From: Oscillospiraceae bacterium
Lineage (GTDB): Bacteria > Bacillota > Clostridia > Oscillospirales > Oscillospiraceae
NCBI GenBank assembly: GCA_015067945.1
Contig: SVLM01000007.1
Span: 19,778-83,777 of the forward strand
Reading direction: 5' to 3'
Length of the DNA: 64,000 bases
Positions 13,834 to 29,327 of this stretch are shown piece after piece. Positions within the stretch are counted from its first letter, which is position 1; each line of letters opens with the position of its first letter. A model generated the notes under the pieces. The model did not search any database. It worked only from the letters and a program-made list of their open reading frames with translations, and was not told where the DNA came from. Both the position numbers and the translations under genes were made by a program.

Positions 13834-13878
13834 GAAATAAAACAGAGGATACCCGGATGGATATCCTCTGTTTTATTT
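13834..13878 (-). terminator. terminator of tRNA-Arg
   Basis: AAATAAAACAGAGGATA...TATCCTCTGTTTTATTT long stem. Confidence 0.75.
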
Positions 13879-13880
13879 GG

Positions 13881-13954
13881 TACGCCGGAAGGGACTCGAA
13901 CCCCTGACCTACTGGTTCGTAGCCAGTCACTCTATCCAACTGAGCTACCGGCGC
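13881..13954 (-). tRNA. tRNA-Arg (anticodon ACG)
   Basis: Reverse strand GCGCCGGTAGCTCAGTTGGATAGAGTGACTGGCTACGAACCAGTAGGTCAGGGGTTCGAGTCCCTTCCGGCGTA. Confidence 0.95.
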
Positions 13955-25710: not shown

Positions 25711-26088
25711 TTATTTTAAGTCCTCACTGAACACAAATTGTGTGTTGACAGGAATTTTGAAATACTCATTATCTCCATTGTCAATTAGTATGAGTGTATT
25801 TTCATCTTTGATTTCAAACCGAAACGTTGTGCTTTGCGAGGTGGCAATAATCGTTCCATTCACCACCTCATATGTGCCATATTCTGCATAAGAAATAACT
25901 GCTCCAGTCCCAAATAGAAATTTATTTTCCTTTGCATTCAAGTATAGATACGGCGTAAACATTTCCTCGTAATTGCCAACAGCATAATAATTGCCGGATA
26001 GCAAAGAAGGGACATTGCTATTAGAAGTACAACCGACAGCGGAAACCAAAACAATTATACAAACAAAACAACACAGTATTTGCTTCAT
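25711..26088 (-). CDS. small lipoprotein of unknown function
   Basis: MKQILCCFVCIIVLVSAVGCTSNSN...; ATGA overlap with upstream four-helix-bundle gene. Confidence 0.65.
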   Translation of the reverse strand: MKQILCCFVCIIVLVSAVGCTSNSNVPSLLSGNYYAVGNYEEMFTPYLYLNAKENKFLFGTGAVISYAEYGTYEVVNGTIIATSQSTTFRFEIKDENTLILIDNGDNEYFKIPVNTQFVFSEDLK

Positions 26089-26438
26089 TTCACATTCTCC
26101 TTTGCGGTTTTGCAAGAGGCGATGAGTAATCTGCGAATATTGCCGCACAGTCTCTCGGCGTATTGATAGGTAGTACTATCGATCCTCTTGGTTTCATGCA
26201 TCAATTTTAACCAACAACTCGTTTCGTTTGATTCTTTCAATGCGATTTCCAGCTTTGCAACAAAGTCTTTCTTGCTCTGTGCGTACTGTGCTTCGTGAAT
26301 ATTAGCTCCAACCGATGTACCAGCCCTTGCAAGCTGATCGGTCATATAAGAACTTTTCGGTGCAGTGATACCGTCAGCAAGATTCACAATCGCAACCGCA
26401 AATTCAAAAGACAACGCAAGTAATTTGTTTTCAGACAT
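26085..26438 (-). CDS. four helix bundle protein (S23/IVP-like)
   Basis: MSENKLLALSFEFAVAIVNLADGITAPKSSYMTDQLARAGTSVGANIHEAQYAQSKKDFVAKLEIALKESNETSCWLKLMHETKRI; conserved QLxRAgTSVgANIxEAQxAxSKxDFixKlxIAlKEsxEtxyWLkLl pattern. Confidence 0.9.
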   Translation of the reverse strand: MSENKLLALSFEFAVAIVNLADGITAPKSSYMTDQLARAGTSVGANIHEAQYAQSKKDFVAKLEIALKESNETSCWLKLMHETKRIDSTTYQYAERLCGNIRRLLIASCKTAKENVK

Positions 26439-26460
26439 GCAAGCACCTTCTTTCATGATC

Positions 26461-26489
26461 GTTATAACACAATTCCTTGCGTTTTGCAA
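26461..26489 (-). promoter_or_regulatory. promoter of the four-helix-bundle gene
   Basis: Minus strand TTGCAA-17 nt-TATAAC; -35 box lies in the inverted repeat of the hairpin array. Confidence 0.5.
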
Positions 26490-26664
26490 TGACATATCGC
26501 ATTCGCGATATGATATACGGCAATGCCGTGTGATATATTTGCGATGCAAATATGATATAATATCCGTTCCTTCATATGCCGAAGGCATATATCATCGCAC
26601 AACAGTGCGATATCATATCGAAGATATATCACCCGTTCCGAAGGGAACGGATATCATTGCAAAA
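26482..26664. repeat. array of seven short hairpins nested within 11-bp terminal inverted repeats (TTTTGCAATGA / TCATTGCAAAA)
   Basis: Hairpins at 26493-26512, 26517-26529, 26535-26553, 26574-26590, 26594-26611, 26615-26627, 26633-26650; secondary long-range stem ATATCCGTTCC (26560-26570)/GGAACGGATAT (26644-26654). Confidence 0.85.
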
Positions 26665-26701
26665 AGCCCCTTTTGTCTGGTAGACAAAAGGGGCTTTTTG
26701 C
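26659..26701 (-). terminator. terminator of tRNA-Gly
   Basis: GCAAAAAGCCCCTTTTGTCTGGTAGACAAAAGGGGCTTTTTGC. Confidence 0.85.
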
Positions 26702-26702
26702 A

Positions 26703-26778
26703 TGGAGCGGGTGACGAGGCTCGAACTCGCTACCTCCACCTTGGCAAGGTGGCGCTCTACCGGATGAGCTACACCCGC
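26703..26778 (-). tRNA. tRNA-Gly (anticodon GCC), CCA encoded
   Basis: Reverse strand GCGGGTGTAGCTCATCCGGTAGAGCGCCACCTTGCCAAGGTGGAGGTAGCGAGTTCGAGCCTCGTCACCCGCTCCA. Confidence 0.95.
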
Positions 26779-26887: not shown

Positions 26888-27169
26888 TCAATCCTTCTTC
26901 AAAAGCGTTGCGTAGCCTTTGCCGTACTGCACGCATCGGGACACCCGGCTCAAGGTGGCCGATGAAATATCGCCCTGAGCGATGACCTGATTATAGGTAT
27001 TGCCCTCCAGCAGCAGCCGTGCCGCACGGACACGCTCTGCCATATTCTCAATTTCCTTCTGTGTGCACAGATCCGTGAACAGTGCCTCGCAGTCCTCCAC
27101 AGATTCCAGGCTGGTAATCAGCCGGTACAGCTCCTGAATACGCATTTTCTTATCCGTCATGGCAGGCAT
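26888..27169 (-). CDS. YerC/YecD family TrpR-like DNA-binding protein
   Basis: LYRLITSLESVEDCEALFTDLCTQKEIENMAERVRAARLLLEGNTYNQVIAQGDISSATLSRVSRCVQYG. Confidence 0.93.
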   Translation of the reverse strand: MPAMTDKKMRIQELYRLITSLESVEDCEALFTDLCTQKEIENMAERVRAARLLLEGNTYNQVIAQGDISSATLSRVSRCVQYGKGYATLLKKD

Positions 27170-27175
27170 CCTCCG

Positions 27176-27886
27176 TTATTCCGCGTCAAACCGACGGCTT
27201 AAAAAGGCCCGGGTCTTTTCGCTTTTGGGATTCTCAAAAACTTCCTCCGGGGTACCCATCTCCTCGATGACCCCGTCTGCCATATATATTACCACATCTG
27301 CTACACATTTTGCAAATGCCATTTCGTGAGTAACCACGATCATGGTGTGATTTTTTTGCTTTAAGCCCCGGATGACTCGCAAAACCTCATCCGTCAGCTC
27401 CGGATCCAAGGCACTGGTAGGCTCATCAAAGCAAAGGATCTCCGGCTGCATGGCCAACGCTCTGGCGATTGCCACCCGCTGCTGCTGACCGCCGGACAGC
27501 TGCCAGGGATAAGCGTCCAGCTTATCCGCCAGTCCCACCTGCCCCAGCAAGCTTTCCGCTTTTGTGCGAATATCGGACTTGCCGCCGATTTTCAGCAGTT
27601 TGGGTGCCAGGGTCACATTTTCCAGTGCCGTATACTGGGGAAACAGATTAAAATTTTGAAACACCAAGCCAAACTGCTGTCGGCTTGCCGGTTTTCCCTC
27701 CACCAGAATTTCTCCGGAGTCCGGTGTTTCCAGAAAGTTCAGGCATCGCAGCAGCGTGGTCTTTCCGCTGCCGGAGGAACCGATGATGGCCAGCACCTGA
27801 CCCTGCTCCAGAGAAAAGCTGACGCCCCGCAGAACCTGGGCTTTATCAAATTGCTTTTGAAGTCCGTTTACCTGCAACAGTGCCAT
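27176..27886 (-). CDS. amino acid ABC transporter ATP-binding protein
   Basis: IIGSSGSGKTTLLRCLNFLETPDSG, LSGGQQQRVAIARALAMQPEILCFDEPTSALDPEL. Confidence 0.95.
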   Translation of the reverse strand: MALLQVNGLQKQFDKAQVLRGVSFSLEQGQVLAIIGSSGSGKTTLLRCLNFLETPDSGEILVEGKPASRQQFGLVFQNFNLFPQYTALENVTLAPKLLKIGGKSDIRTKAESLLGQVGLADKLDAYPWQLSGGQQQRVAIARALAMQPEILCFDEPTSALDPELTDEVLRVIRGLKQKNHTMIVVTHEMAFAKCVADVVIYMADGVIEEMGTPEEVFENPKSEKTRAFLSRRFDAE

Positions 27887-27889
27887 ACG

Positions 27890-28537
27890 TTAACCTCTGA
27901 AATAATTAAGCTTTTTCTCCACGGTGCTGAACAGAATAGTCAGCAACCCGTTGAACACCAGGTAGAATGCACCGGTGTAGAACAGCGGCCAAATCAAACC
28001 GCTTTTAATGAAGGATTCGCCGGCCCAGATCACCTCGTATACCGCAATGATCCGTGCCAAGGCAGTATCCTTGACCAAGGTGATGATCTCGTTGCTCATA
28101 GGCGGCACGATCCGCTTAACCACCTGCAGCAGCACCACCCGAAAGAAGGTCTGAGACCTGCTCAGTCCCAGCACCTGACCGGCTTCCCATTGTCCCTGGC
28201 TGATGCTTTCAATGCCGCCCCGGTAGATCTCGGCAAAATAACAGGCGTAATTGATGGAAAAGGCCACAATCACCGCCGTAAACCGGGGCAATGCACGCAT
28301 ATGGAATATCAAACCCGGTCCGTAGAAGATCACCATCAGCTGCAGCATCAAGGGCGTGCCGCGAATGACCCAGATGAAGCCCCGGATCAGCCACCGCAGG
28401 GGTTTGATCCGGCTCATGGAGCCAAAGCATACCAGCAAGCCCAGGGGCAGAGAAAACACCAAAGTCAGTGCAAAAACCTTTAGCGTTTCCTCAAAGCCCT
28501 GCAAAAGCTGCAGCGTTACCGACAGAAACTGTCCCAT
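27890..28537 (-). CDS. amino acid ABC transporter permease
   Basis: RGTPLMLQLMVIFYG..., AEIYRGGIESISQGQWEAGQVLGLSRSQTF. Confidence 0.95.
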   Translation of the reverse strand: MGQFLSVTLQLLQGFEETLKVFALTLVFSLPLGLLVCFGSMSRIKPLRWLIRGFIWVIRGTPLMLQLMVIFYGPGLIFHMRALPRFTAVIVAFSINYACYFAEIYRGGIESISQGQWEAGQVLGLSRSQTFFRVVLLQVVKRIVPPMSNEIITLVKDTALARIIAVYEVIWAGESFIKSGLIWPLFYTGAFYLVFNGLLTILFSTVEKKLNYFRG

Positions 28538-28541
28538 AGCT

Positions 28542-29327
28542 TTACTTAATGTCGGCCAAAGTCAATCCGTACTTATCCGCCAAGGTCTTCAGGGTGCCGT
28601 CGGCCATCAGCTTCTTCAGGAAATCATTGAGCTTTGCGGTCACATCGGAATCCTTACGGAAGCCAATGCCGTATTCCTCCTCAGTCAGAGAAATGCTCTT
28701 GGCCAGATCGGCATAGCTGGTGCCGGCACCGGTCATATTGTTGGCCATGGTAATATCGATGACGCAGGCATCGGCAGTACCGGCGGCTACCTCCATCAAA
28801 GCATTGTCCTGATACTGTACTTCGATCAAATTGGTAAAGCCTGCTTCCTTAGCGGCGTCTTCGCCGGCAGAATCATTTTCCACCGCAACGGACAGATCCT
28901 TCATGCTCGCCACATCGGGATACTGAGCGATTTTATCGGCCTTCATAACAATGACCTGAGCATTCAGTACATAGGGAATGGAGCAGGAGGTATTGTTCAG
29001 CACATCATCACTGATGGTCATGCCGTTCCAGATCACATCGATCTGCTTGGTTTCCAGCTCGATAAACTTCTTGCCCCAGTCAGCTATGACAAAAAACTCG
29101 ATCTCTACGCCCAGCTCTTTTGCAAACAGGGTAGCCAGTTCCGCATCAAAGCCGGTCCAGTTGCCGTTTTCATCCTTAAAGTCCATGGGTGCGTACTCGG
29201 TGATGCCCACCACGAGCTTGCCCTTGTTCTGAATGTCCTTCAGATCCGAGCCGGACTCCTGGACACAGCCAGCAAAGCAGCCCAGCACCAACAAGATAGC
29301 CATTACCATTGCGAACATTTTTTTCAT
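28542..29327 (-). CDS. amino acid ABC transporter substrate-binding lipoprotein
   Basis: ILLVLGCFAGC lipobox; GKLVVGITEYAPMDFKDENGNWTGFDAELATLFAKELGVEIEF. Confidence 0.93.
   Translation of the reverse strand: MKKMFAMVMAILLVLGCFAGCVQESGSDLKDIQNKGKLVVGITEYAPMDFKDENGNWTGFDAELATLFAKELGVEIEFFVIADWGKKFIELETKQIDVIWNGMTISDDVLNNTSCSIPYVLNAQVIVMKADKIAQYPDVASMKDLSVAVENDSAGEDAAKEAGFTNLIEVQYQDNALMEVAAGTADACVIDITMANNMTGAGTSYADLAKSISLTEEEYGIGFRKDSDVTAKLNDFLKKLMADGTLKTLADKYGLTLADIK

Follow-up and report, generated by a model that had tools for sequence, protein, structure and literature searches.

Organization of the tRNA-Gly locus

The window analysed here is a 64-kb stretch of a draft genome (1.97 Mb in 42 contigs, labelled G000). 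Read on the minus strand, the locus comprises a tRNA-Gly(GCC) gene, a terminator stem, a 183-bp hairpin array, −35 and −10 elements, a gene of the S23 family (IVP gene) and a lipoprotein gene, in this order. The individual features are:

26818-26791, minus strand: promoter of tRNA-Gly, perfect sigma-70 type (TTGACA, 16 nt, TATAAT)
26703-26778, minus strand: tRNA-Gly (GCC), found with ARAGORN; its 3' CCA directly precedes the unit
26658-26702, minus strand: terminator hairpin with a perfect 21-bp stem, abutting the CCA
26482-26664, no strand: hairpin array of 183 bp whose ends are 11-bp inverted repeats; the spacers read TGATAT in one half and ATATCA in the second
26493-26512, 26517-26529, 26535-26553 and 26574-26590: hairpins 1-4 of the array
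26594-26611, 26615-26627 and 26633-26650: hairpins 5-7 of the array
26557-26570, no strand: left arm of a central long-range stem, ATAATATCCGTTCC
26644-26657, no strand: right arm of the same stem, GGAACGGATATCAT
26584-26659, minus strand: match to Gut-1 (RF01706), 57.7 bits (gathering score 50)
26487-26563, plus strand: second, inverted match to Gut-1 (RF01706), 46.5 bits, under the gathering score
26461-26489, minus strand: IVP promoter read from the sequence (−35 TTGCAA at 26484-26489, 17 nt, −10 TATAAC at 26461-26466)
26085-26438, minus strand: IVP gene, 117 aa (PF05635/TIGR02436, S23 family four-helix bundle)
26085-26088, minus strand: ATGA overlap of the IVP stop with the downstream start; homology to the congener G141 breaks here
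25711-26088, minus strand: exchangeable downstream gene, here a lipoprotein without known family, a GNAT-type acetyltransferase in G141

The original prediction for this locus had described a promoter for the IVP gene (TTGCAA, 17 nt, TATAAC), an ATGA overlap of the IVP and lipoprotein genes, and a merging of the right array end with the tRNA-Gly terminator. All three are present in the sequence, the last as the perfect 21-bp stem at 26658-26702, and the −35 element lies inside the distal terminal repeat of the array. The perfect 11-bp inverted ends that had been proposed, TTTTGCAATGA (26482-26492) and TCATTGCAAAA (26654-26664), were read directly; the seven hairpins are all at their assigned places in the array, and the additional longer stem, ATATCCGTTCC/GGAACGGATAT, is real. 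Every sequence detail given there was borne out. A 167-aa open reading frame (26085-26588) reaching into the array was discarded as a mere upstream extension of the frame, the natural start being the ATG at 26438 with its RBS. Elsewhere in the window, a gene for a YerC/TrpR-type regulator (26888-27169) adjoins amino-acid ABC transporter genes of GlnQ/GlnP/periplasmic type (27176-29327), both judged by their translations only.

Membership of the IVP gene in the S23 family, as originally proposed, is supported by PF05635 (81.8 bits; cut-off 33.8) and TIGR02436 (90.3 bits; cut-off 24). The AF2 model (pLDDT 91.4) contains four helices and resembles S23-family structures (2rld, TM 0.90; 2gsc, TM 0.84), with the DGR protein Avd being more distant (4dwl and 8ub7, TM 0.76-0.81). 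Relatives with the S23/Avd fold form pentamers; we know of no catalytic site in this four-helix bundle. Comparison with G141 gave a dN of 0.015 and a dS of 0.101 for IVP, consistent with purifying selection.

The coupling to a lipoprotein gene that had been predicted stands as far as the ATGA overlap is concerned. The lipoprotein is not a fixed part: in G141, homology ends at the IVP stop and an acetyltransferase takes its place. At other loci, the gene that is coupled by ATGA, or simply comes next, looks like an acetyltransferase, a Nudix hydrolase or one of many other proteins (translations inspected), with a nucleotidyltransferase (Pfam NTP_transf_2) among them. The downstream genes are thus diverse, and ATGA coupling is found in part of the loci.

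Structure and conservation of the hairpin array

A hairpin-cluster scan of the whole 64-kb window returned the array block, one weak three-hairpin cluster and nothing else; the same scan of five shuffled windows gave one three-hairpin cluster. Stem covariation had been put forward as a check on the array. Across eight arrays of the TGATAT type, both sides had changed in 19 of 68 stem pairs, which 0 of 500 shuffles reached. The spacer is the most constant part of arrays of this type (95.5% conserved, compared with 91% for stems and 55% for loops).

Gut-1 matches both halves of the array, in opposite orientations, and both matches were missed in the original prediction; only the minus-strand half scores over the gathering threshold. 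Further Rfam matches in this block, Thr leader and PyrR among them, are weak and were rejected, being far under their thresholds and resting largely on the terminator. Each half is like Gut-1 in sequence and structure. Unlike the Rfam model (PMC2864571), which describes one stand-alone half, the halves here form an inverted pair beside a terminator and often an IVP gene. Our analysis suggests that the Rfam 'Gut-1 RNA' is half of a hairpin array and not a free-standing small RNA, so that an accepted Rfam small RNA would be part of a repeat element.

Arrays, tRNA genes and IVP genes occur together

Scanning genome contigs with an IVP alignment identified 574 relatives, of which the best 80 were taken; 68 of these had full upstream sequence. 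Being made up of the nearest relatives, this sample of 80 loci favours the hairpin form. The named relatives are metagenome-assembled genomes of Clostridia/Oscillospiraceae, mostly from herbivore guts. The data are mostly drafts of this kind, one per species, and several loci were read by eye.

Co-occurrence of arrays and four-helix-bundle genes, a check proposed at the outset, was confirmed: at least four short hairpins lie within 330 bp upstream of 61 of the 68 IVP genes, compared with 42 of 319 control genes, the controls being other ORFs at the same loci. Likewise, 44 of the 68 IVP genes, compared with 13 of the 319 other ORFs, have a co-directional tRNA within 700 bp upstream. At all 38 loci with a tRNA within 330 bp, the order reads CCA, terminator hairpin, array (printed sequences inspected by eye); an automatic filter requiring a perfect stem of at least 8 bp scored 27 of the 38, and 26 of these 27 stems begin 0-1 nt after the CCA. 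A sigma-70-like promoter stands between array and ATG at 40 of 74 related loci (6.8 expected from shuffles). Among 121 genomes of the same family, Gut-1 is present in 22, PF05635 in 26 and both in 13 (Fisher p = 1.7e-5). Many arrays have no adjacent IVP gene. Cassettes of terminator, array and gene without IVP were also seen (L206, L204 (G141)), two of them in tandem and each with a promoter-like site.

The same unit is found at different sites

The unit extends from the base after the tRNA CCA to the IVP stop. Near-identical units behind tRNA-Tyr, -Ser, -Ala and -Pro, and one without a tRNA, are alignable from the base after the CCA to the IVP gene. The alignment includes the terminator, and the sequences diverge past the IVP stop. 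In related units, the terminator moves with the unit and not with the tRNA. Between G141 and the window, array and IVP gene are 97% identical and the flanks 88% and 81%. Most congeners carry a plain terminator in the tail of tRNA-Gly; others carry TGATAT, TGAAGT or TGAAAT arrays. Three further tRNA loci (C41, C4 and C1) agree between G000 and G141 up to the end of the tRNA and then continue with different terminator-array-gene modules or none. One unit at unrelated sites, with a defined left edge, meets the general criterion for a mobile element, and 26085-26702 is probably a single instance of an S23-type unit that is, or until recently was, mobile.

The earlier suggestion of a possibly mobile element is supported in its main part. 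Sequence comparison shows site-hopping and exchange between congeners; the chemistry of movement and the right-hand boundary of the unit are inferred. The proposed search for empty sites yielded presence/absence polymorphism whose left edge falls precisely at the tRNA CCA, the right edge being imprecise; none of the sites was cleanly empty between two intact flanks. Among the loci compared, no right-hand end with a target duplication could be defined, and no excision, circle or movement of the unit was observed.

No copy of the tRNA-Gly 3' end was found within 4 kb of the window tRNA-Gly, and classical insertion by a tRNA integrase was rejected for this site on that ground. In G141 (L204), a 20-nt copy of the tRNA 3' end lies between two tandem cassettes behind tRNA-Asn. 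Copies of 3' ends were found for 6 of 96 tRNAs, compared with 0 for 5' ends. Within the window, the 3' end of tRNA-Arg (13878-13954, minus strand) recurs as a 19-nt copy ~165 bp downstream of the gene, and tRNA-Gly has comparable 19-21-nt 3'-end copies downstream at two other loci (L158, L159). The copies behind tRNA-Arg and tRNA-Gly are possibly a second, short kind of tRNA-tail insertion. A hairpin, GCAACAGTCC-NNN-GGACTGTTGC, recurs in tRNA tails of the same genus (L158, L174, L204, L207), some copies being close to tRNA 3'-end copies.

Spacer type follows the IVP clade

The spacers were grouped by type (TGATAT, TGATGT, TGAAGT, TGAAAT, TGAATT and others) and placed on a tree of 73 IVPs. Spacer type requires 9 changes for 9 types, compared with a mean of 33.9 for shuffled labels (matched in 0 of 300 shuffles). 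The tRNA isotype requires 27 changes (shuffled mean 27.8) and is as scattered as shuffled labels. Spacer type thus tracks the IVP clade while tRNA isotype varies; therefore, repeat and protein stay together while the site changes. Such agreement is in part expected, because linked parts are co-inherited. The idea of a nucleic-acid-binding protein with its cognate array gains from this co-variation and lacks binding data: that IVP binds the spacers of its own array is an inference, and binding has not been shown. Alternatively, selection on a regulatory site could account for the constant spacers and the 97% identity.

Solo arrays in terminator loops

One genome (G061) contains 29 matches to Gut-1. 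We compared eight near-identical arrays of ~310 bp, each bracketed by two long hairpins; at least eight solo arrays are present, and all those compared lie in terminator loops. Their outer flanks are mutually complementary (score 20.4 for matched and 12.1 for mismatched flanks; permutation p = 5e-5), because they are the two arms of host terminators. Six PF05635 genes were inspected in G061 (98% complete); not one has a TGATAT-type array or encodes a close relative of the window IVP. The presence of TGATAT-type solo copies without a cognate IVP among the genes inspected is unexplained.

IVP genes beyond Clostridia

S23/IVP proteins have been known in 23S IVS since the early 1990s, and their function has gone unexplained for some 30 years. 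One paper (PMC4990558) still calls the origin and function of S23 unclear and refers to an early suggestion that the ORF has a role in mobility. We found tandem heptamers beside PF05635 genes on plasmids from five phyla (Cyanobacteriota, Bacteroidota, Spirochaetota, Chloroflexota and Bacillota), in many cases with opposite orientation on the two sides of the gene; examples are (TAATTCG)n / (CGAATTA)n from Nostoc and (TTAGTGA)n from Bernardetia. The best lag-7 identity had a median of 0.80 in 28 flanks, compared with 0.40 at 198 control positions (MWU p = 2e-16); these loci are not all independent, being mostly from Nostoc or close kin. In the Coxiella 23S IVS, heptamers (GACAGAT) lie just before the S23p ORF, in strain-variable number (PMC4990558).

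The 23S IVS with an S23p ORF (Leptospira, Coxiella; PMC4990558) is like the present unit in having a PF05635 gene, a hairpin-associated site in a stable RNA and inverted ends. The Coxiella heptamers directly upstream of the ORF and the suspicion of a selfish or mobile nature are further likenesses. In contrast to the 23S IVS, the present unit is located outside 23S rRNA, either in terminators or 3' of tRNA/5S genes. It intersperses hairpins with its repeat unit and includes a terminator of its own, in many cases also a promoter, and an exchangeable gene that is coupled to it. Of the criteria for a 23S IVS, an S23p ORF within the element is met, and insertion in a 23S helix (9, 25 or 45) is not.

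Several IVP genes behind tRNAs (L086, L092, L094, L105, L107, L109-L112) have bare (ATTCACT)n/(AGTGAAT)n heptamers. In these loci, a further copy of the terminator's right arm stands between the two heptamer blocks and is complementary to the left arm together with the CC of the tRNA. Two gut phage scaffolds carry an array with IVP, one of them behind tRNA-Arg. IVP genes also split other operons, separating hsdS from hsdR and cas2 from cas1 (among L352, L308, L345, L350); in the same set of loci, an IVP gene between helicase and N6-methylase genes was seen in two phyla. IVP genes in cas loci have been reported (PMC3936711). In the literature covered, which excludes preprints and most subscription journals, these cas loci (PMC3936711) and the Coxiella IVS heptamers (PMC4990558) were the only links found between a four-helix-bundle gene and a repeat.

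A proposed class of mobile element

Recurrence behind many tRNAs, together with a motif that tracks the protein tree, suggests a mobile element and a testable role for the S23 family. The family is now linked to a defined repeat that varies along with the protein, to a defined edge of insertion (the tRNA CCA) and to exchangeable coupled genes, and the main part of the original interpretation is upheld. The most far-reaching interpretation, which we put tentatively at a probability of roughly 0.4, is an undescribed class of mobile element in which an S23 protein and its own heptamer/hairpin array, without a known transposase or RT, enter the hairpins of genes for stable RNAs (at the 3' ends of tRNAs, at terminators and, by extension, in helices of 23S rRNA) and mobilize diverse coupled genes. 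There is a fair chance that this S23/IVS-type element is a new mobile-element class, a novelty judged without preprints and most subscription journals.

In the reading that we prefer and consider fairly likely, the mobile or recently mobile unit comprises, in order, the perfect terminator hairpin after the tRNA 3' CCA, the array with its family-specific heptamer-like spacers, a sigma-70 promoter and the IVP gene, followed by an exchangeable gene translationally coupled through ATGA. The most likely role of the IVP pentamer is to bind its own array at the spacers, probably as folded single strands or cruciform DNA, and to help to copy or join the unit behind new terminator hairpins, chiefly those at tRNA 3' ends. 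Another enzyme, as yet unidentified, is probably needed, because the four-helix bundle has no known catalytic site. Solo arrays could spread into terminator loops too. Fold-back DNA synthesis is a lead only, hinted at by terminator arms that recur on either side of bare heptamers (L094, L105) and by tRNA-end copies in inverted orientation (L207). The role of the protein and its part in movement are inferred. If the proposal holds, the tRNA tails of gut Clostridia would be sites of gene exchange.

Other movers

The arrays may instead be mobile with IVP as a passenger or regulator, the mover being a RAYT, a tRNA-targeting integrase, or host recombination together with snap-back synthesis at hairpins; we consider this possible, if doubtful. 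Integron cassettes and tRNA-targeted elements combine small exchangeable genes, structured recombination-like sites, tandem cassettes and tRNA 3' ends as sites. The present unit shares these features; unlike them, it has no integrase, sits behind many tRNA isotypes and shows no duplication of the tRNA end at the window. The flanking direct repeat of the tRNA 3' end expected for tRNA-targeted elements is met at L204, where the 20-nt tRNA-Asn copy between cassettes, like the 6 of 96 tRNAs with such copies, speaks for another mover; the window tRNA-Gly without one speaks against it, as does the lack of a tRNA sequence common to the different tRNA sites that a classical integrase could use. Inverted or repeated terminator arms (L094, L207) resemble fold-back synthesis, and the G061 solo arrays lack a cognate IVP among the genes inspected; against this, spacer type tracks IVP and not the site.

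A RAYT is present in 15 of 22 genomes with Gut-1 arrays compared with 26 of 99 others (p = 3e-4), and in 17 of 26 IVP genomes (p = 3e-4). REP/REPIN families with RAYT (PMC2817692, PMC3116915, PMC8266576) are also like the arrays in being many-copy intergenic palindromes with non-autonomous copies and a pairing of protein and repeat. The arrays, by contrast, have no GTAG tag and no adjacent RAYT, and the REP-RAYT criterion is not met. Despite the co-occurrence, RAYT was rejected as the cognate mover: where palindromes were seen, the inspected RAYTs carry their own GTAG-tagged REPs (for example L330, L331, L334, L315) and not the array spacers. In G000, one RAYT (L330, C12:67494-67937) is flanked by its own REP palindromes, GTAG and then GGGAGGGT-CTTG-ACCCTCCC.

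RNA or DNA as the working form

Alternatively, the block could be a regulatory or processed RNA, either a Gut-1 small RNA or an attenuator of IVP, with a function in RNA only. Gut-1 is an Rfam family first found in human-gut metagenomes and rated as certainly an RNA, of unknown role and not cis-regulatory (PMC2864571); its stems covary, and several loops are UUCG-like on the IVP sense strand. We nevertheless find this unlikely. At the window and at the 40 of 74 related loci with a promoter-like site, the array would lie outside both main transcripts, because it stands between the terminator and the IVP promoter. It is also symmetric, with two inverted halves, has copies in terminator loops of unrelated genes, and folds as exceptionally as single-stranded DNA (z = −8.6) as it does as RNA (z = −6.7). 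Without transcript data, we infer that the array works as DNA and not as RNA.

Operator cluster or retroelement

The array could also be an operator cluster through which IVP controls the coupled downstream gene, the units moving only by homologous recombination around tRNAs. The promoter at the array end, purifying selection on IVP and the diverse, in part ATGA-coupled downstream genes are compatible with such control. We judge this quite improbable, since homologous exchange lacks a common left flank, because homology begins only past the CCA of different tRNAs, and solo arrays occur in at least eight unrelated terminators.

A retroelement that depends on a DGR-type or other RT acting in trans, with IVP in the place of Avd, is very unlikely and was rejected. 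Despite the shared fold (4dwl, 8ub7; TM 0.76-0.81) and an RVT_1 gene beside a weak, Avd-like PF05635 match on another contig of the window's genome (C38), no RT, template or variable repeat lies near the unit, so that the DGR criterion is not met, RT is unassociated with arrays (5 of 22 genomes with Gut-1 arrays and 33 of 99 others; p = 0.45), and the array-rich G061 and G072 (at least 95% complete) gave no RVT_1 match. The RVT_1 gene with its weak PF05635 match (G000 C38:71846-73204) is probably a DGR with Avd in the window's own genome.
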